Positions 1,296-8,978 of a stretch of 62,246 bases of DNA are shown piece by piece. The translations under genes and the position numbers were made by a program. The notes beneath the pieces were generated by a model. The model searched no databases, was not told the origin of the DNA, and saw only the letters and a list, made by a program, of their open reading frames with translations. The first letter of the stretch is position 1. Each line of letters opens with the position of its first letter. Source of the DNA: Acidobacteriaceae bacterium (GTDB lineage: Bacteria; Acidobacteriota; Terriglobia; Terriglobales; Acidobacteriaceae); NCBI GenBank assembly GCA_003152695.1, contig PMAT01000053.1, positions 1-62,246 on the forward strand. The letters are read 5' to 3'.

Positions 1296-1511
1296 GAATA
1301 CTTTGCTTACAAGTCAAATGGAATGAATACTTTGGCAGGAATTCTGCAACTTATTTAGTAGCAAGGACTTAGCCTGTTCCGTAACTCCAATGCAATGAAT
1401 ACTTTGCCGGGAATCGTGCAAAGTATTGAATCGTAACGACTTAGATCGCGCAACAACTCTAATGTTTTGAATACTTTAGGGGCAAAGTATTCAAAATAAG
1501 GATCTTACAAT
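1296..1511. repeat. tandem intergenic repeat, about 72-bp period
   Basis: GAATACTTTG-type words begin at 1296, 1325, 1397 and 1469, so the last three are exactly 72 bases apart. Units 1325-1396 and 1397-1468 also share TGCAA, a TATT..A core, GACTTA and AACTC.AATG, roughly 70 percent identity by eye. The last unit is shortened and contains the palindrome GAATACTTT/AAAGTATTC. The transposon is inserted straight after it. A related AATATTTTG array lies at 29091-29205. Confidence 0.65.
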
Positions 1512-1567
1512 GGCAAATATATACTTGGCTCACAATCTGTGCTATCTTGTTGATTGCCGTGACGGGG

Positions 1568-2443
1568 TTAATAGGCTTTCGTCAATCCAAACGTCTCAAA
1601 ATGGCCGATGTACTGCCCCGATGGAGGGAAGAACTCGTCCCCGTGATCAGGGACGTATATGTACACGAAGAAAGTGCCGTGGGACTTCGCGGTTTCGTCG
1701 GTATATCCGAGACATCCCACCAAAAAGACCTTCACGAACTCAGTGTTGGGAATTTCTTGCGGGTACGCCATCCAGTCGGCCTTATTGGGAAGCGGCTTAG
1801 TCTCTCCCGGCAGCAAGAACAGCCCCACATGGTTCCTGTAGAGAGTGAGCGGGAACCCGCCTGGTTCACAGTTGATCTGCTTGTCATCAATCAAGCCGCC
1901 GAATGGATTCTTATCCACGAGAGTTGGATAGTAAGGCTTTACCACCAAATGGCCGAGGATGGAGGCGTTTATCGCTGGAGAAGTTCCGCTGTTGGCAACG
2001 GTAATCAGGGTTCCTCTTGCGTGAGCGCCGCCGAAGTCGAAGGTCAGTGGTTCGGTTACTTGGATTGGATCTTTAATGCCCACCCAAGGACGATGGGACG
2101 CAGCAAATTGTTTTTCCGAGTCGGAAACTTGCTGCTTAATCTGCGCGTATTGCTGCTGGGCGATGCAGGCGTAATACGCGGCGGCGGAGAAAGCGCCAGC
2201 GGTGAACAAGGCCAGAGCGATCTGGACCATAAGCATGTGCCGGTGATGCTCATTGTCTCGCTTGGAATCGTCAGCGCTTTTTTTAATGGTTATGGGTTGT
2301 TCCAGTCTCACAGGTGGTGGGGGGCCTGCCTGTTCTTCTTTGGCTGGTTCGGCTTCGGATTTAGCGTCTTTCTGTTTCTCTATAGCCTCCGATAGCCGAG
2401 TTAAGGCGGCAAGCAACTTTCGTAACGGTGCGGACAGAGTCAT
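1568..2443 (-). CDS. passenger membrane protein of the IS1595 element
   Basis: The 291-aa protein has a charged, proline-rich N-terminal region (residues 1-70, probably cytoplasmic), one hydrophobic helix at about 71-92, a Gln-rich helix at 93-110 and a C-terminal domain of about 180 residues beginning with a HRPWVGI-like strand. I do not recognise a named family, but the layout of a short helix followed by a W[VI]G strand recurs in bacterial hypothetical proteins. It lies wholly inside the inverted repeats of the transposon, so it travels with it. A plus-strand frame over the same bases (1547-2395) is less protein-like. Function unknown. Confidence 0.7.
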   Translation of the reverse strand: MTLSAPLRKLLAALTRLSEAIEKQKDAKSEAEPAKEEQAGPPPPVRLEQPITIKKSADDSKRDNEHHRHMLMVQIALALFTAGAFSAAAYYACIAQQQYAQIKQQVSDSEKQFAASHRPWVGIKDPIQVTEPLTFDFGGAHARGTLITVANSGTSPAINASILGHLVVKPYYPTLVDKNPFGGLIDDKQINCEPGGFPLTLYRNHVGLFLLPGETKPLPNKADWMAYPQEIPNTEFVKVFLVGCLGYTDETAKSHGTFFVYIYVPDHGDEFFPPSGQYIGHFETFGLTKAY

Positions 2444-2452
2444 AATTTGCGT

Positions 2453-2605
2453 ATGGCGAAAAGGAAAGCAGAATACATAGAGGGCCGGAAAGCAAGGGAA
2501 AACTTTGAAACGGCGATGAAGGCTGCGTTTCAGATTCCAAAGGAAAAGGCTCCGGCAAAGCCGAAGCCTAAGCGCCGCAAAGCGTTCGGCAGCGACACGG
2601 GCTAG
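2453..2605 (+). CDS. 50-aa basic protein inside the IS element
   Basis: An ATG at 2453 opens a 50-codon frame that reads MAKRKAEYIEGRKARENFE and continues into a Lys/Pro-rich tail, ending TAG at 2603-2605. Its stop overlaps the convergent transposase stop by four bases. Its start lies only nine bases from the divergent passenger start. CATAAT at 2441-2446 could be a -10 box giving a leaderless message. From memory, similar short EGxKAxENF proteins occur beside IS1595 transposases in related genomes; this was not searched. A role in transposition control is speculation. Confidence 0.6.
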   Translation: MAKRKAEYIEGRKARENFETAMKAAFQIPKEKAPAKPKPKRRKAFGSDTG

Positions 2606-3636
2606 AAAGGCTCCTCTTGCCCCTGTGCTGCCGCCGAATGGTGCAGCGAGTCAACTCCCTTGCCCGTTAGTACGGTATAGGTAAGACGCTTGCCAGGGGC
2701 CAAAGACATGGCCTTCATGAAGCGGTCGGAATCGGTAACTCGCTCTTCGCGCTTCTTGCCGCCGCGATTGTTGAAACGGAACACCTGTTCGTCAAGGTAA
2801 CGATCAAGATGGAATGGCTCGACAGACACGTAAGTCCCGCGCAAGTTGCGCTTGAACAGGCTCCAGAAGTTTTCGAGTCCGTTAGTGTGAACCTGCCCAC
2901 GCACGTACTCCTTGGCGTGTTGCACGACTTCATGGACAAACGTCTTTTCCATCCCCATGTATCCAGCCCACTCATCGGTGTAGAGCCTGCTGCCGTGTTC
3001 GATGTTGTCCAGGATTTCATTCTGCAAGGTTTCGCGCCTAACGTTGGGGATGACCTTGCAGCGAATCTCGCGAGCGTCGCGATCAAGCATTCCGTGAACA
3101 GCAGTCTTGCCGAGATACATATCCCCAAGCCTGTGCTGACTGCGAATCGCGGCGAGCTTCACGCGCCGATCTTTATGCATCTTGCGAGGATTCGGCCCGA
3201 CGAACGTCTCATCACTTTCCACTGCTCCGCCAGTACTGCCGAGCTTTGCCACGGAATTGTTTTTGATGACTTCCCGGACTCGGTGAAGCATGAACCATGC
3301 GGACTTCTGGGTGATCTTGAGAGTCCGCGCCATCTCTGCGCTGCTGACTCCGTTCTTACAGTTGACCACCATCCAGAAGGCCGTCATCCACTTATCCATG
3401 CCGAGCGGAGAATCCTCGAAGATAGTTCCGACCTTAACGCTGAATTGCTTCTTGCATCCCTTGCACCACCACATCAGCCGTGTGCGCAGAAACGAGTGTT
3501 GCTCGCCGCCGCATCGTGGACAGGTTATCTTCTTTCCCGGCCAGCGCAGATTGACTGCATACACGAAAGCCTGCTCGGGATTGGAGAAATAAGCAATTGC
3601 TTCTTGCAGGGATTTGGGCTGTTTGATGTTCGCCAT
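2602..3636 (-). CDS. IS1595 family transposase (ISXO2-like)
   Basis: The 344-aa protein has an N-terminal zinc ribbon (Cys39, Cys42, Cys58, Cys61), a helix-turn-helix-like segment at about 95-120 and an RNase H-fold DDE/N domain. The first Asp is in VESDETF (142), the second in LYTDEWAGY (221), and the third acidic or Asn position is in HTNGLENFW (about 252-255). This is the usual ISXO2/IS1595 arrangement, and the length is complete. It is the catalytic gene of the element at 1512-3707 and appears intact. Translation starts at ATG 3636, about 55 bases inside the right terminal repeat. Confidence 0.95.
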   Translation of the reverse strand: MANIKQPKSLQEAIAYFSNPEQAFVYAVNLRWPGKKITCPRCGGEQHSFLRTRLMWWCKGCKKQFSVKVGTIFEDSPLGMDKWMTAFWMVVNCKNGVSSAEMARTLKITQKSAWFMLHRVREVIKNNSVAKLGSTGGAVESDETFVGPNPRKMHKDRRVKLAAIRSQHRLGDMYLGKTAVHGMLDRDAREIRCKVIPNVRRETLQNEILDNIEHGSRLYTDEWAGYMGMEKTFVHEVVQHAKEYVRGQVHTNGLENFWSLFKRNLRGTYVSVEPFHLDRYLDEQVFRFNNRGGKKREERVTDSDRFMKAMSLAPGKRLTYTVLTGKGVDSLHHSAAAQGQEEPF

Positions 3637-3775
3637 TTCTTTGCCCTCTCGCTCTATCTGATGCGAGAATAGCAGAAAGGATGTTGTGTGTCAAGTATAT
3701 ATTTGCCCTTACAATTCGGGGGGAGGGGTCAGCGACGCCGGTTCTACTCCCGCTCTGTTATCCTGCTGGCGACCC

Positions 3776-4510: not shown

Positions 4511-5248
4511 TTACTGCGCGGAGCCGCGCTTCGGTCGGAAGGCATAGAAGTACCACTTCAAATATTGCGGCAACCACGCCCACATCTTGAACCGCGATTC
4601 ACCTTGGGTTCGACCGCGCCAGGTTGTCGGCAACTCCGCAATGCGATAACCGGCGAGGAAAGCTTTCACGGTTATTTCGAGGCTGAGTTCAAACCCCGCC
4701 TTGCTCTCGATCGTCATGCCCTTCAGGATTTTGCTGTCGTACAGCTTAAACGCATTGGTAGCGTCGTGGGTGGGAATCCCGCGAAACCAGTGCAGCGTGA
4801 GGCCGGCGACTCGCGACATCGCGCCCTTCAGCGGAGGCGCATCCAGCAACCGGCCGCCCGGCATGTAGCGACTGCCAACGACTACCTGATATCCCTGGCG
4901 ATAGCAGTCAACCATTTGGTCCACTTGTGCGAGGTCATCGGAAAGATCGGCCATGATCACCAGCACCGGACCGCTTTCGACTTGAGCGAAGCCGGTGCGG
5001 ATGGCCCCGATTACGCCTCGTCCCACATTGTTCTTGACCGGAACCAGTCGAGTCTCTCCGGCGGACATGATTTGCCGCAGGACGGGAACGGTATTGTCTT
5101 CGTCGAAGTCAAACACCACGAACGCCCTGAATCGCGAGCGGATTTGCGAGGTGAGCGCACTCCACAGAGCGGGGAAGTTGGCGCCTTCGTTGTAAACAGG
5201 AATGACCAGGCTCAGTTCGGTCGAGGTGAGTTCAGGTACGACATCCAC
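4511..5248 (-). CDS. glycosyltransferase family 2
   Basis: The 245-aa protein has the GT2 nucleotide-sugar fold: LSLVIPVYNEG at residues 12-22, a central acidic motif MADLSDD (99-105) as the expected DxD-like site, and no clear membrane helix. It resembles dolichyl/undecaprenyl-phosphate sugar transferases such as DPM1, which load a lipid carrier. The GTG start at 5248 overlaps the stop of the upstream epimerase as TAGTG, so the two are probably translationally coupled. It is the last gene of a three-gene sugar operon. The actual sugar and acceptor cannot be told. Confidence 0.85.
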   Translation of the reverse strand: MDVVPELTSTELSLVIPVYNEGANFPALWSALTSQIRSRFRAFVVFDFDEDNTVPVLRQIMSAGETRLVPVKNNVGRGVIGAIRTGFAQVESGPVLVIMADLSDDLAQVDQMVDCYRQGYQVVVGSRYMPGGRLLDAPPLKGAMSRVAGLTLHWFRGIPTHDATNAFKLYDSKILKGMTIESKAGFELSLEITVKAFLAGYRIAELPTTWRGRTQGESRFKMWAWLPQYLKWYFYAFRPKRGSAQ

Positions 5249-6270
5249 TAGATCTGACCCACTTCGATTTGCTCAGCGACCCAGGGAATGACTTCGTCCA
5301 GTATCGCGCTCAAGCTGGTGGTGGCTTCAAAGCCGAGCAGTTGTTTAGCCTTGCGCGTGTCAGGTGAGCGCTCCTGCACGTCATATTCGAATGGCGGGTC
5401 CGAAACATGGCGGAACGGTTTGTTGTCGCCATGCACCTTGCGCCAGATGGTTTCGGCCAATTCCAGAACGGTGGTGCGAGCCGGAGTGGAAAGATTGAAA
5501 TCCTGATTGACCGCAGCAGGATGCTCCAGACAAACTTTTATTCCCTTGGCCAGATCGCCACCATAGGTGTAGTGGCGAACTTGATTTCCAGAACCGAGAA
5601 TGTGGAGAGGATCCTGGCCCTTGAGCACCTTCTGCACCAGGTCGGGGACAACGTGCGACATCGCAAGTTTCACATTGCCGCTGTAAATGTCATGGTCATG
5701 CAACGCCCGCTTCTCTCCAACGCCGACGCAATTAAACGGACGCACGATGGTGTAGGGCAGCTTGTACTGCTCCCACGCCCCCTGAACAAAATACTCGGTC
5801 GCCAGCTTCTGAAACCCGTACGTCGAACGCGGTGGAGGACAGCGATGCTCGGCGCCTTCGGGAGTGGGATACTCCGAAGTGCTCTCGAACACCATGCTCG
5901 ACGACATCACGGTGATCTTCTGCAGCTTCTGGTGTTGATGAGCATGGATGGCGGCATCGAAGGAGGCGGCGGTGATGCGTTCATTCTCCGCCAGCAAGTC
6001 GTAGGCAAACTCGTGGAAGTAGCTGATGCCGCCGATCATTGCCGCTGAGGCAACAAAGTGATCACAGTCGGACAGCAGTTCTTTCAGCAAGGAAACATCT
6101 TTGCAATTTGCCTCGACGAACTGATAGCGCGGGTGTTGGTCGTACGACTTCTCCACCCGCCCGTACTTGCTGAAGTTATCGACCCCAACAACTTCATAGC
6201 CCGCCTGAAGCAATTCCTCAACCAGGTAGCCGCAAATGAAACCGGCCGAGCCAGTGACCAGTACCTTCAT
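5248..6270 (-). CDS. NAD-dependent epimerase/dehydratase (extended SDR)
   Basis: The 340-aa protein starts MKVLVTGSAGFICGYL, the Rossmann GxxGxxG motif in which the usual FIG reads FIC. It has a SYGFQK-like YxxxK pair (STYGFQKLATE) and a sugar-nucleotide-binding C-terminal half, as in UDP-glucose 4-epimerase or GDP-mannose epimerase relatives. ATG 6270 overlaps the upstream stop as ATGA, which decides this start over the longer frame. It works with the dehydrogenase upstream and the GT2 downstream, probably in making a surface polysaccharide or glycan. Exact substrate unknown. Confidence 0.87.
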   Translation of the reverse strand: MKVLVTGSAGFICGYLVEELLQAGYEVVGVDNFSKYGRVEKSYDQHPRYQFVEANCKDVSLLKELLSDCDHFVASAAMIGGISYFHEFAYDLLAENERITAASFDAAIHAHQHQKLQKITVMSSSMVFESTSEYPTPEGAEHRCPPPRSTYGFQKLATEYFVQGAWEQYKLPYTIVRPFNCVGVGEKRALHDHDIYSGNVKLAMSHVVPDLVQKVLKGQDPLHILGSGNQVRHYTYGGDLAKGIKVCLEHPAAVNQDFNLSTPARTTVLELAETIWRKVHGDNKPFRHVSDPPFEYDVQERSPDTRKAKQLLGFEATTSLSAILDEVIPWVAEQIEVGQI

Positions 6271-7502
6271 GACCGCGCTCCTCCTGCCGCAACCGGTATC
6301 GGCGGTTGGGACGACTCGGCGTGCCGCTCCGGCCAATAGTTCCAGATATCAATCACAACCTTGTCGGCTGGGATCTGAACATCGCGATAGGCCGCGTGGG
6401 GCGCTCCCAGTACAAATATTTGAGCCCGGCTGAGGGCTTCACTTAGCGGAACCAGTCGCGGGTCGGGCACGTACGGATCGGTGCAAAGGACCTCTTTGGC
6501 CTCGACTTCCAGCAGCTTCTTCAGCTTGTAAGACAGGCTGTCACGATTGTCGTCGGACTCTCCCTTGAAAGCCATTCCCAGGATCGCAACCGTCTTATCG
6601 GCGAGATCGAGCGGACGCATCTGCGTTACAAGGAAGTCGGGAAGGCCTTCGTTCACCAACATGGCGGCGTGTCCGAGGAAGAAATGATTGCTGGAGAACG
6701 CCGAAAGCTGCAGTGTGTCCTTGAGCAGGCAAGGTCCAGCGGCAAAGCCGGCGCGCGCAAAACTTCGCATCCTGGGATACTCGCGAGTGACCGCATCATG
6801 AATGCGATAAAAGTCGAGGCCGTAGGTTTCCGCCAGCATGTAGAACTGGTTCGAGATGGCGAAGTTCAGGTATCGCCAACTGTTGGTGAACAGCTTGGCC
6901 AACTCCGCTTCCAGCGGCGACAACTCGATAACCGTGGATGCAATGGTGAGGAATAGTTCTTTTGCCCTCCGTAGCGCGCCCGGTTCGAAGGCTGACACGA
7001 TCTGCGGCAGCTTAACCAGTTCCTCCATAGCGTTGCCTTCGGCAATGCGCTCAGGACAGAACGCCAAGTCAATATCGCGTCCCAGCGACTTTATTCTCTG
7101 ATAAACCAACTTGGTGACACCCGGGCTGACGGTGCTGCGCAGAATCAACAAGGTGCCGTCATTGATGTACTGCAGCGTGCCGTCCACACTTTGATACAGC
7201 TCATTAACCGTGGGGTTAAGGTGCCGGTCAACGGGCGTGCCGACAACGGTTATGACCGTGTCCGCTATTCGCAGGCATTGCGAGTCCGTGGTGGCGGTCA
7301 GAGTTTTGCCCAGGACTTGGCGCAGAACGGGCTCAGCTCCCGCTTCGCGGAAAGGCATCTGGCCGGAATTGATTTTTTCGACCTTGGCCGCGTCGATATC
7401 GAGGAGAGAGACCGACAATCCACGGCTGGCCAGTACGATTCCCAGCGGCAAGCCGACGTGTCCGCAGCCGCCCACAATGACGAGGTTCTGTTGAGTCGAC
7501 AA
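6267..7502 (-). CDS. nucleotide-sugar dehydrogenase (UDP-glucose/UDP-ManNAc type)
   Basis: The 411-aa enzyme has the N-terminal NAD-binding GGCGHVGLPLG (11-21), a central helical region with FTNSWRYLNFA, the catalytic cysteine in AGPCLLKD (C258) and a C-terminal domain with GMAFKGESDDNRDS. It would oxidise the C6 hydroxyl of a UDP-sugar to a uronate. The start is a TTG preceded by AAGGA, and the gene leads the operon with the epimerase and GT2. It runs divergently from the exosortase operon across a 486-bp gap, which suggests linked exopolysaccharide work. WecC-like or Ugd-like cannot be separated by eye. Confidence 0.88.
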   Translation of the reverse strand: MSTQQNLVIVGGCGHVGLPLGIVLASRGLSVSLLDIDAAKVEKINSGQMPFREAGAEPVLRQVLGKTLTATTDSQCLRIADTVITVVGTPVDRHLNPTVNELYQSVDGTLQYINDGTLLILRSTVSPGVTKLVYQRIKSLGRDIDLAFCPERIAEGNAMEELVKLPQIVSAFEPGALRRAKELFLTIASTVIELSPLEAELAKLFTNSWRYLNFAISNQFYMLAETYGLDFYRIHDAVTREYPRMRSFARAGFAAGPCLLKDTLQLSAFSSNHFFLGHAAMLVNEGLPDFLVTQMRPLDLADKTVAILGMAFKGESDDNRDSLSYKLKKLLEVEAKEVLCTDPYVPDPRLVPLSEALSRAQIFVLGAPHAAYRDVQIPADKVVIDIWNYWPERHAESSQPPIPVAAGGARS

Positions 7503-7988
7503 AGCGATATCCTTAAGTCCGTTGTTAGCAGGGCGTTGAAGCGCAATTCTACCGCATCTGTAAGTGGGCGTCGCGCTGGGGCTTTGCTGCCGTCAGCGAA
7601 CAGTCAATCGCCAACGTGCCTGCTAATTTCCGGTCTTGAAGTTAGCTATGGGTTGGCTGCTCTTCAACGAGCGCCCTCGGCAAGACTTTTAGTTGCGTTA
7701 GGTCAAACTGTTGCGTACGATGACAAGTGCACGGTCGTCGGGAGCAGTTGCGGTTCATGATTCTCAGGATTCTTACTCAGGTGGAATCGCGGAGGGAGTG
7801 AACTGGGCTGGAACGAATATGCAAACATTTGCACTGCTTGCATTCAAAGTTTTGCGATTCCGAGAATCCATGATAAGAACTGCTTGATTATCAGCTATTT
7901 ATCGAATATGCTATCCTGCACTCTCGGCCAAATAATTGCACACACCCCAAAGGGACTGCCAGAGAAATCAAACAGGGAGTGAGAACCG
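7503..7988. other. divergent intergenic region
   Basis: This is a 486-bp gap between the dehydrogenase and exosortase operons. A plus-strand frame across it (7191-7760) is a shadow of the dehydrogenase gene. The right half is AT-rich and holds the candidate exosortase promoter at 7884-7912. No sigma-54 -24/-12 pair was found here. Confidence 0.5.
7884..7912 (+). promoter_or_regulatory. candidate sigma-70 promoter of the exosortase operon
   Basis: TTGATT (7884-7889) and TATGCT (7907-7912) are separated by 17 bases, about 75 bases before the TTG start at 7989, in the AT-rich end of the gap. Confidence 0.45.
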
Positions 7989-8978
7989 TTGGCGCTGGCC
8001 GGCACCAAAACGACGAGTACTGCTTTGACTACCCCAGTCGACGAACAAGTCTTGTTGGACGACAGTAGCACTGCGAAATCTTCCACCTTGTGGCAAACGC
8101 TCAAGCCGTTCGGCTGGCAAGGGTTGCTGCTGGTCGCGGTGTTGATTGCTCTGTACGCAGCGGTTCTGAAGCATCTGGTGGGTCAGTGGTACAACGATGC
8201 CGACTATTCTCACGGATTTCTGGTTCCCTTACTGGCGCTTTACTTGATCTGGCAGAGGCGGGAAAAGTTGGGCCGGATTGTGCGCCGCCCGTCGCCGTGG
8301 GGAATGTTAGTCGTTTTGTTGTCCCTCGGACTGCTATTTCTCGGAAGCTTGGGGGCGGAACTTTTCCTGGCACGGATCTCGATACTGGGCACCATCTGCG
8401 GGCTGATCGTCTATTTTTGCGGTGGCCCACTGCTGCGCGCTATGGCTTTCCCGTTAGCGTTTTTGCTGTTTGCGATTCCCATGCCGGCTCTGATCTACAA
8501 CGAAATTGTTTTTCCGCTGCAATTTGTGGCCTCCAAATTCGCCACTTCGACGTTGGAGATGCTCAACCTGTTTCCCGTCATGCGTGAAGGCAACGTTCTG
8601 ATTTTGCCCAACATGACGCTGGAGGTGGTGGAGGCCTGCAGCGGTATTCGGTCGTTGATGTCGCTGCTGGCCCTGGCTGCCGGCTACGGGTATCTAGCCG
8701 AGCGCAGCACCGCGGTGCGCTGGCTGTTGTTCCTGGCCATGGTTCCCCTGGCCATTATCAGCAACGGGACCCGAGTCATGATAACGGCTTTGATGGCAAA
8801 CTACATGGGGCCCCGCGCGGCCGAAGGATTCATGCATGAGTTTTCGGGTTGGGTGATTTTCGTAGTGGCCACGGTGTTATTTTTAGGGTTGCACAGCTTG
8901 ACGATTGTGGTGCGCAAGAAACTGGGATGGCTGCCAAAAGATGGAAGCCCCCTTGCAAAGGCTAAGGTCAGTCAATGA
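7989..8978 (+). CDS. exosortase (XrtA/EpsH-like)
   Basis: This 329-aa polytopic membrane protein has the three exosortase signatures: the catalytic cysteine in EACSGIRS (C217), the arginine in NGTRVMI (R262) and the histidine in FMHEFSGW (H283). Such enzymes act as transpeptidase-like sorting proteases on C-terminal PEP-CTERM tails at the inner membrane. A PEP-CTERM substrate is present at 32792-33442. The TTG start follows GGGAG at a workable distance; no ATG fits as well. The next gene, EpsI, overlaps by ATGA. Which exosortase subtype it is cannot be fixed from the sequence alone. Confidence 0.9.
   Translation: MALAGTKTTSTALTTPVDEQVLLDDSSTAKSSTLWQTLKPFGWQGLLLVAVLIALYAAVLKHLVGQWYNDADYSHGFLVPLLALYLIWQRREKLGRIVRRPSPWGMLVVLLSLGLLFLGSLGAELFLARISILGTICGLIVYFCGGPLLRAMAFPLAFLLFAIPMPALIYNEIVFPLQFVASKFATSTLEMLNLFPVMREGNVLILPNMTLEVVEACSGIRSLMSLLALAAGYGYLAERSTAVRWLLFLAMVPLAIISNGTRVMITALMANYMGPRAAEGFMHEFSGWVIFVVATVLFLGLHSLTIVVRKKLGWLPKDGSPLAKAKVSQ

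Follow-up and report, generated by a model that had tools for sequence, protein, structure and literature searches.

The stretch analyzed here, referred to as the window, is the 62,246-nucleotide contig PMAT01000053.1 of an Acidobacteriaceae bacterium (assembly GCA_003152695.1). At positions 1512-3707 it carries a complete element of the IS1595 family of insertion sequences (IS), 2,196 bp in length and lying between two copies of CTTACAAT, as delimited from the sequence and by a search for inverted repeats (IR) and target-site duplications (TSD). From the transposase end the order is an IR, a predicted promoter, the transposase gene, a convergent gene for a protein of 50 amino acids (aa), a gene for a 291-aa protein and the far IR. 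The 291-aa gene is read in the transposase direction and the 50-aa gene lies on the opposite strand.

1504..1511, no strand: left copy of the target-site duplication, CTTACAAT (sequence and IR/TSD search)
1512..1539, + strand: cargo-side inverted repeat GGCAAATATATACTTGGCTCACAATCTG, in which the consensus TTGAC reads TTGGC
1568..2443, - strand: cargo gene for a 291-aa membrane-anchored protein (open reading frame (ORF), hydropathy, profile and structural model)
2453..2605, + strand: putative core accessory gene for a 50-aa basic protein with a helix at residues 12-26 and a basic tail (ORF and profile)
2547..2569, - strand: terminator-like hairpin followed by a T-rich tail, downstream of the transposase gene and within the 50-aa gene (weak)
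2602..2605, no strand: CTAG common to the convergent stops of the transposase and 50-aa genes (sequence)
2602..3636, - strand: IS1595-family transposase of 344 aa with zinc ribbon and DDE domain (ORF and domain matches)
3666..3694, - strand: predicted transposase promoter TTGACA-17-TATTCT, with its first box within the inverted repeat
3680..3707, - strand: transposase-side inverted repeat GGCAAATATATACTTGACACACAACATC (IR/TSD search)
3708..3715, no strand: right copy of the target-site duplication, CTTACAAT (sequence and IR/TSD search)

A preliminary description of this DNA had proposed an IS1595-type element with exact ends, an 8-bp duplication, a perfect 16-bp inverted core and an intact DDE transposase, and each of these was borne out. 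The IR/TSD search found the element again with 23 of 28 matching IR positions and 8 of 8 TSD positions, its 16-bp tip GGCAAATATATACTTG is perfect at both ends, and all other places in the window, on either strand, differ from this tip by at least four mismatches. The element carries the GG tip at both ends, which we take to be a mark of the IS1595 family, and CTTACAAT provides the 8-bp target duplication that is a trait of the family. The 344-aa transposase frame has no internal stop and matches Pfam DDE_Tnp_IS1595 (E 1.2e-36, 126.5 bits against a cut-off of 27), NCBIfam NF033547 (E 6.8e-49, 166.6 bits against 75) and, at its N-terminus, the zinc ribbon PF12760 (E 2e-11, 44.1 bits against 25.4). 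When 20 transposases were aligned, the columns without variation included D142, D221, N256 and K262. The best plasmid relative has 38.8% identity.

Relatives of this transposase were gathered in three sets. A search of 396 genomes of the phylum at E 1e-20, with up to five candidates per genome scored in many of them, located it in at least 75; the flanks of the 40 closest transposases outside the window's own genome, together with loci from that genome, formed a first set of 44 loci. Under a bracket rule of GG-tipped repeats with an IR of at least 19/28 and a duplication of at least 7/8, 36 of these 44 gave a bracket. The second set comprised the best 80 loci from 84,980 species genomes scanned with a transposase alignment; 51 gave brackets, 49 of which contain the small 50-aa gene according to a model trained on the first set only. 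A third set of 80 loci was drawn from IMG/VR viral contigs and yielded 35 complete elements. One record of an already counted element (L093, equal to that of L085) and two second-set records that repeat first-set loci (L147 and L213, records of L064 and L084) were dropped before the counts, as were 8 of the 44 first-set and 29 of the 80 species-genome loci that lack both ends by the rule; L144, L153, L157 and L168, without strict ends and with both end motifs present, were used for the tree only. The sample that remained numbered 85 complete elements, no two of them identical, with lengths of 1.7-4.6 kb; the first set contributed 35 and the second 49, and L105 is the remaining one. All 85 are GG-tipped at both ends, but the search rule required GG; duplications are exact (8/8) in 82 and 7/8 in the others, the search floor being 7. 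The best 80 species-genome loci are mostly from Acidobacteriota and most of the others are metagenome bins, carrying the labels Syntrophaceae, Acidimicrobiia, Rubrobacter, Chlorobiota, Deltaproteobacteria, Fimbriimonadaceae, Pseudanabaena, Methylacidiphilales and Verrucomicrobia.

A profile of the small gene matched 83 of the 85 elements (82 if L190, matched in one scan and not in the other, is dropped), whereas 454 kb of flanks gave two matches, one of which is in the flank of L085, where another IS1595 transposase also lies. Among the bracketed elements the gene is present irrespective of the cargo. It was also found in 31 of the 35 complete viral-contig elements, the misses being L246, whose transposase has 47% identity, and L306, L310 and L311, which at 37-38% are among the most distant. 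The encoded protein is a short helix with a pattern close to F, about ten residues, (V/A)PK, followed by a basic tail. Relative to the transposase the gene is antisense in 72 of 83 cases and sense in 11; it lies within 100 bp of the transposase end in 66 of 83, and 44 of the 72 antisense copies share an exact 4-bp stop overlap with the transposase (CTAA in 27, CTAG in 15 and TTAA in 2). Over 39 pairs of small genes, third codon positions changed 936 times versus 495 and 384 for the other two, in pairs picked by protein identity, which favours a third-position excess. Because the gene occurs in 83 of 85 elements whatever their cargo and so often overlaps the transposase stop, the 50-aa protein is, as far as sequence comparison can tell, a core part of the transposon; its earlier assignment to the passengers has to be given up.

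The phylum search returned 42 small-gene hits with E <3e-6; for 36 of them an IS1595 transposase, or a fragment of such a gene, is present no farther than about 3 kb away. The remaining six (C100, L104, L108, L109, L110 and L113) are away from any such transposase, with both end motifs near L108, one near C100 and none near the other four; some of these transposase-less loci look like decayed or non-autonomous copies. L108 4058-5544, 1,487 bp long, has the small gene, both end motifs and a 7/8 duplication but no transposase, and is possibly a non-autonomous form.

On the far side of the transposase lies a slot of 0.4-3.2 kb (median 1.3 kb) that holds one or a few cargo genes. Comparison of 17 element pairs by DNA revealed homology across the transposase where both members have one. 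It reaches approximately the start of the small gene in 10 pairs, stops within or before that gene in the others, and resumes over the extreme 16-57 bp in 11. Five pairs have no end match (window/L014, L071/L167, L072/L167, L071/L072 and L159/L160), L161 and L074 have their cargo in common, and extra short matches occur in between in 4 of the 17. Cargo ORFs were called by codon scores, an imperfect measure that left 17 elements with a fallback or no call. From 106 such ORFs, those of L176, L180 and L187 (fallback) were taken out, that of L085 was exchanged and those of L014 and L066 were added, after which the families were scanned. Clustering of the slots placed a DUF3800-like protein in 19 elements and two clusters without a family (clusters 1 and 2) in 10 and 7, with further pairs of RelA/SpoT-like, methyltransferase and AIPR proteins; 32 of the 85 elements have no slot ORF cluster in common with another element. 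Pfam and PADLOC, the latter covering known anti-phage systems, add AriA/AbiLi-like ATPases, AbiU, Mrr, SocA-like, PemK, HEPN and Schlafen proteins, with one or two members each.

The label DUF3800-like is a weak one, as the 19-element cluster was formed by pairwise similarity; among 18 of these elements scanned singly with the Pfam model, 9 pass the cut-off, 3 fall below it and 6 give no match. In PMC10910872, DUF3800 is linked to Cas12 systems and putative non-coding RNAs; no Rfam family matched 12 loci with DUF3800-like cargo, or the window element. On the transposase tree, a quick one with many weak forks, DUF3800-like cargo requires 18 changes over 19 tips, no better than shuffles (mean 17.3). 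Pfam assigned 32 families to the cargo versus 214 to flank proteins; no metabolic enzyme is present among the 25 of the 32 cargo families listed, whereas the first 25 flank families include several. In the L066 element (4950-8651), two DUF3800-like ORFs are adjacent and the end sequence recurs internally around element position 2847, an arrangement that would fit an element enlarged by the addition of a second slot.

The window cargo itself, the 291-aa protein, has one predicted membrane segment near residue 70 by hydropathy and no Pfam or NCBIfam match at E 1, in keeping with its original portrayal as a single-helix membrane protein of no named family. An AlphaFold2 model built from 33 sequences (mean predicted local distance difference test score 75) contains a long helix at residues 62-116, which comprises the predicted membrane segment and a coiled coil, and a beta-sandwich at about 121-265 that resembles an immunoglobulin (Ig) domain, hence the designation TM-Ig. 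More positive charge precedes the helix, which suggests that the N-terminus is inside and the Ig-like domain outside. The cargo profile gave a best E of 0.44 against PDB sequences and the model gave no Foldseek match under E 0.001; the best VIA Z, 7.5 to beta-sandwich domains, is within the range of unrelated models, and the modelled sandwich would in any case be too common a fold to name a function. A 282-aa ORF at 1547-2395 (+) competes with this frame; searched against Pfam only, it gave one match at E 0.055, below cut-off. The 291-aa reading is preferred because its profile finds relatives in other elements. A search of plasmids with two cargo proteins gave no match.

TM-Ig cargo is present in 9 of the 85 elements (8 by clustering, and L148 by profile) and in 2 of the 35 complete viral-contig elements, so that the same passenger does recur inside the same ends at other loci with 8-bp duplications, the outcome that the preliminary description had required. 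A profile search of the 396 phylum genomes, with at most five candidates per genome scored, located at least 23 TM-Ig places: 7 within elements of the branch, two of which (C84 and C100) show a single end; 3 in or beside other transposons; and 13 in no recognisable transposon. Recurrence within transposons was thereby upheld; exclusivity was not, judged by the condition under which the preliminary description would have been refuted, namely passenger proteins found mostly elsewhere than between such ends. One of the other transposons (L120 3566-6313) belongs to a second IS1595 lineage with an approximately 32% identical transposase; it has 22/22 repeats and the 8-bp duplication GAAAAATC, and the profile found no small gene in it. 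In L119 the TM-Ig gene lies beside a transposase of that second lineage, and no transposon ends were found. The third, L115 4114-7427, is an IS1-type element with GGTAGTGTCC ends, an IR of 21/24 and the 8-bp duplication CGCTGCTG. The branch end motif is absent from all 13 places outside recognised transposons; rescanning of 10 of them with looser rules gave weak candidates at L116 (13/24, 8-bp repeat) and L121 (20/22, 5-bp repeat), which may be chance matches. Since 13 of the 23 places are in no recognised transposon, a wider family was probably the source of the cargo, through more than one capture; on this distribution it appears to be picked up repeatedly and not confined to transposons. 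A single capture was rejected, as the trait changes 9 times over 13 tips of the transposase tree.

The DNA of the window element also finds partial copies in its own genome. C89 (L014 4765-7791) is a second complete element of 3,027 bp with the duplication CTTGTAAC, a 66% identical transposase, the small gene and two further genes, one of the window cargo family. C84 and C100 each have the small gene (shortened in C84), one end and a cargo of the window family, and the 9 kb retrieved for each yielded no transposase. DNA comparison among the window element, C84 and C100 gave a similarity of 77-91% in two parts, as far as the region where the cargo begins and across the final 55-57 bp, and no match over the cargo itself. 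On the C84 contig, an IS1-type element with the tip GGTAGTGTCTCAGTTTG is inserted in the small gene (L012 from 4648), with a transposase at 4983-5855 (-; DDE_Tnp_IS1, E 4.3e-7) and a hydrophobic-looking 105-aa ORF at 4669-4986 (-) that overlaps the transposase stop and may also be a cargo; the other end of this element was not found.

Inward TTGAC boxes are carried by the repeats, and the inner TTGAC can double as a -35 box. A -10 box with at least 4 of 6 matches follows on the transposase side in 74 of 85 elements versus about 16 expected in shuffles, and on the cargo side in 40 of 85 versus about 8.5, from which some cargoes may be readable from their own repeat. Across 75 elements, cargo orientation was not significantly associated with an intact cargo-side box (p 0.24 for TTGAC, p 0.065 for the -10). 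The window element has an altered box on the cargo side, and its cargo gene faces in the opposite direction; read-through, or a promoter belonging to the cargo, would therefore be needed. Terminator-like sites in the region number 6 versus 2.7 expected, a weak excess.

These observations are best explained by an autonomous cargo-carrying transposon of a distinct IS1595 branch, made up of a fixed core and a variable slot, a reading to which we assign a probability of roughly 0.8. The fixed parts are repeats near GGCAATAATATACTTGACTCACC, a zinc-ribbon DDE transposase with its promoter at its own repeat and a gene for a small basic protein that is usually convergent; the variable part is the single slot of approximately 0.4-3.2 kb, whose cargo differs between related elements. 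Given the IS1595 family and the 8-bp duplications, the transposase would pair and cut both ends and insert the whole unit. The small protein presumably promotes or limits transposition by binding to DNA or to the transposase, because it accompanies the engine whichever cargo is present. The 291-aa cargo might sit in the inner membrane with its N-terminus inside and its Ig-like domain outside. The element could conceivably be retained for a contest- or phage-related benefit that this protein brings to the host, since the cargoes of sister elements include methyltransferase, Abi-like and DUF3800-like proteins; such company is a faint hint of a defence- or contest-type role.

An alternative is that the 50-aa and 291-aa genes form one two-gene unit, a toxin-antitoxin pair or a membrane effector with its regulator, that is merely carried. 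The two are divergent neighbours 9 bp apart in the window, and a similar pair without a transposase in the fetched stretch occurs at L110 and L013. However, the small gene accompanies 83 of 85 elements and TM-Ig cargo only 9, the 4-11 kb retrieved at each of the 13 TM-Ig places outside recognised transposons showed no small gene, and the 4-bp overlap is with the transposase and not with the cargo; a toxin-antitoxin pair was rejected on the two counts, and the two-gene unit, already largely refuted, is highly improbable. The small frame could instead reflect a conserved sequence that controls the transposase as an antisense RNA or as a DNA site, which would suit its antisense orientation in 72 of 83 elements, with 44 of these frames ending in the transposase stop. 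This is improbable in view of the 11 sense copies, of 17 of 83 copies at least 100 bp from the transposase end, of a frame recognisable at the amino-acid level with most change at third codon positions, and of the lack of an Rfam family matching the window element; an antisense artefact was rejected.

The slot might also never be exchanged, an old cargo gene diverging very fast in place. In the window, C84, C100 and C89 elements, all from one genome, the cargo is indeed of a single family, with 21-24% identity to the window cargo, and TM-Ig is more clustered on the tree than shuffles. Yet in the window element, C84 and C100 a cargo with no DNA match is flanked by DNA of 77-91% similarity, and related transposases carry unrelated cargo, as in L066 (DUF3800-like) and L069 (cluster 1) or in L196 and L189, which makes in-place divergence an unlikely account. 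Somewhat easier to entertain, though still on the unlikely side, is a cargo protein that is a chance hitch-hiker with no selected role: TM-Ig belongs to no known family and 13 of 23 sampled relatives lie outside recognised transposons, whereas its presence in three transposon lineages (this branch, the second IS1595 lineage at L120 and the IS1-type element at L115) and its 9 changes on the transposase tree count against this reading.

Several results weigh against the transposon with a fixed core and an exchangeable, useful cargo. For the window copy, two flank searches covering 60 family genomes found no genome with both flanks together, that is, no empty site, and the left flank is repetitive, which limits this search. 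The 291-aa cargo matches no known family, including 0 PADLOC families at E 0.001, and two representatives each of clusters 1 and 2 (e.g., L216 7133-8062 and L210 7348-8121) gave no Pfam or PADLOC match. PADLOC is permissive, with 196 families matched by 105 cargo proteins versus 132 by 105 flank proteins (drawn at random from 154 flank ORFs), and these counts show no defence bias of the cargo; the Pfam contrast is more telling and is itself partial. Part of the TM-Ig spread may be descent, as its 9 changes compare with a shuffled mean of 12.4 and a lowest value of 10 in 200 shuffles. Finally, the first 44-46 loci served to tune both the rule for ends and the model of the small gene; the later sets provide the fairer test.

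Our broader proposal is tentative and should be regarded as doubtful at present: a widespread class of cargo-swapping transposons of 2-4 kb, in Acidobacteriota and about six other bacterial phyla by record titles, could shuttle contest or anti-phage genes under the control of a small protein that overlaps the transposase stop, and TM-Ig could be a new envelope defence or superinfection-exclusion protein picked up by several transposon lineages. Passenger-carrying insertion sequences are easily mistaken for odd singletons; in the transposon branch favoured here, the passenger state would be the rule throughout, with one engine, one small companion, one slot and many cargoes. Such a branch would be a natural experiment on how bacteria package and trade single genes, reading the slot would be a simple route to new defence-like genes, and the small protein, of about 45-75 residues, is a testable candidate for a transposition regulator.

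The IS1595 family is divided into seven groups, namely IS1016, ISPna2, ISH4, IS1595, ISSod11, ISNwi and ISNha5, and GG tips are stated for Merlin elements, relatives of IS1595 (PMC8101967). The branch agrees with the family as portrayed there in its zinc-ribbon DDE transposase and in duplications that are usually 8 bp. The family is described with a single transposase gene (PMC8101967), whereas members of the branch also have the small core gene and the cargo slot. IS1595 members with passengers were already known, as the preliminary description had stated. Those designated tIS in PMC5704250, MTnSag1 (tISSag10) and tISCpe8 from Streptococcus agalactiae and Clostridium perfringens, likewise combine an IS1595-type transposase with passengers between 25-bp repeats, and a title in its reference list names tISCpe8 as a lincomycin-resistance element. 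The window element is of this kind in having a 291-aa non-transposition gene inside IS ends, and its sister elements carry other cargo. MTnSag1 and tISCpe8 are treated as mobilisable (PMC5704250), whereas no relaxase-like family is among the 25 of 32 cargo Pfam families listed for the branch. A literature search, with most subscription papers outside its reach, found no description of the branch, its small protein or its slot.

Two IS1-type elements offer a further parallel, each being small and pairing a transposase with a membrane protein, of the TM-Ig family in L115 and, in the element inserted in C84, a putative one encoded by the 105-aa ORF. L115 differs from the branch in its DDE_Tnp_IS1 transposase (E 1.1e-9), its GGTAGTGTC ends, the divergent arrangement of transposase and cargo, and the lack of a small gene in the fetched stretch.

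Immediately to the left of the window element, positions 1300-1500 hold three copies of a repeat with GAATACTTT, 72 bp apart, and parts of this flank match several places in the same genome. Farther left, an antisense remnant at 758-889 is similar to the 3' part of an antitoxin gene of the HTH_37 type (HigA-like), with an intact relative at L077 6738-7061. Of the matches to the remnant, the two listed for genome G084 are each no more than about 1 kb from an element of the branch (L072 and L077).

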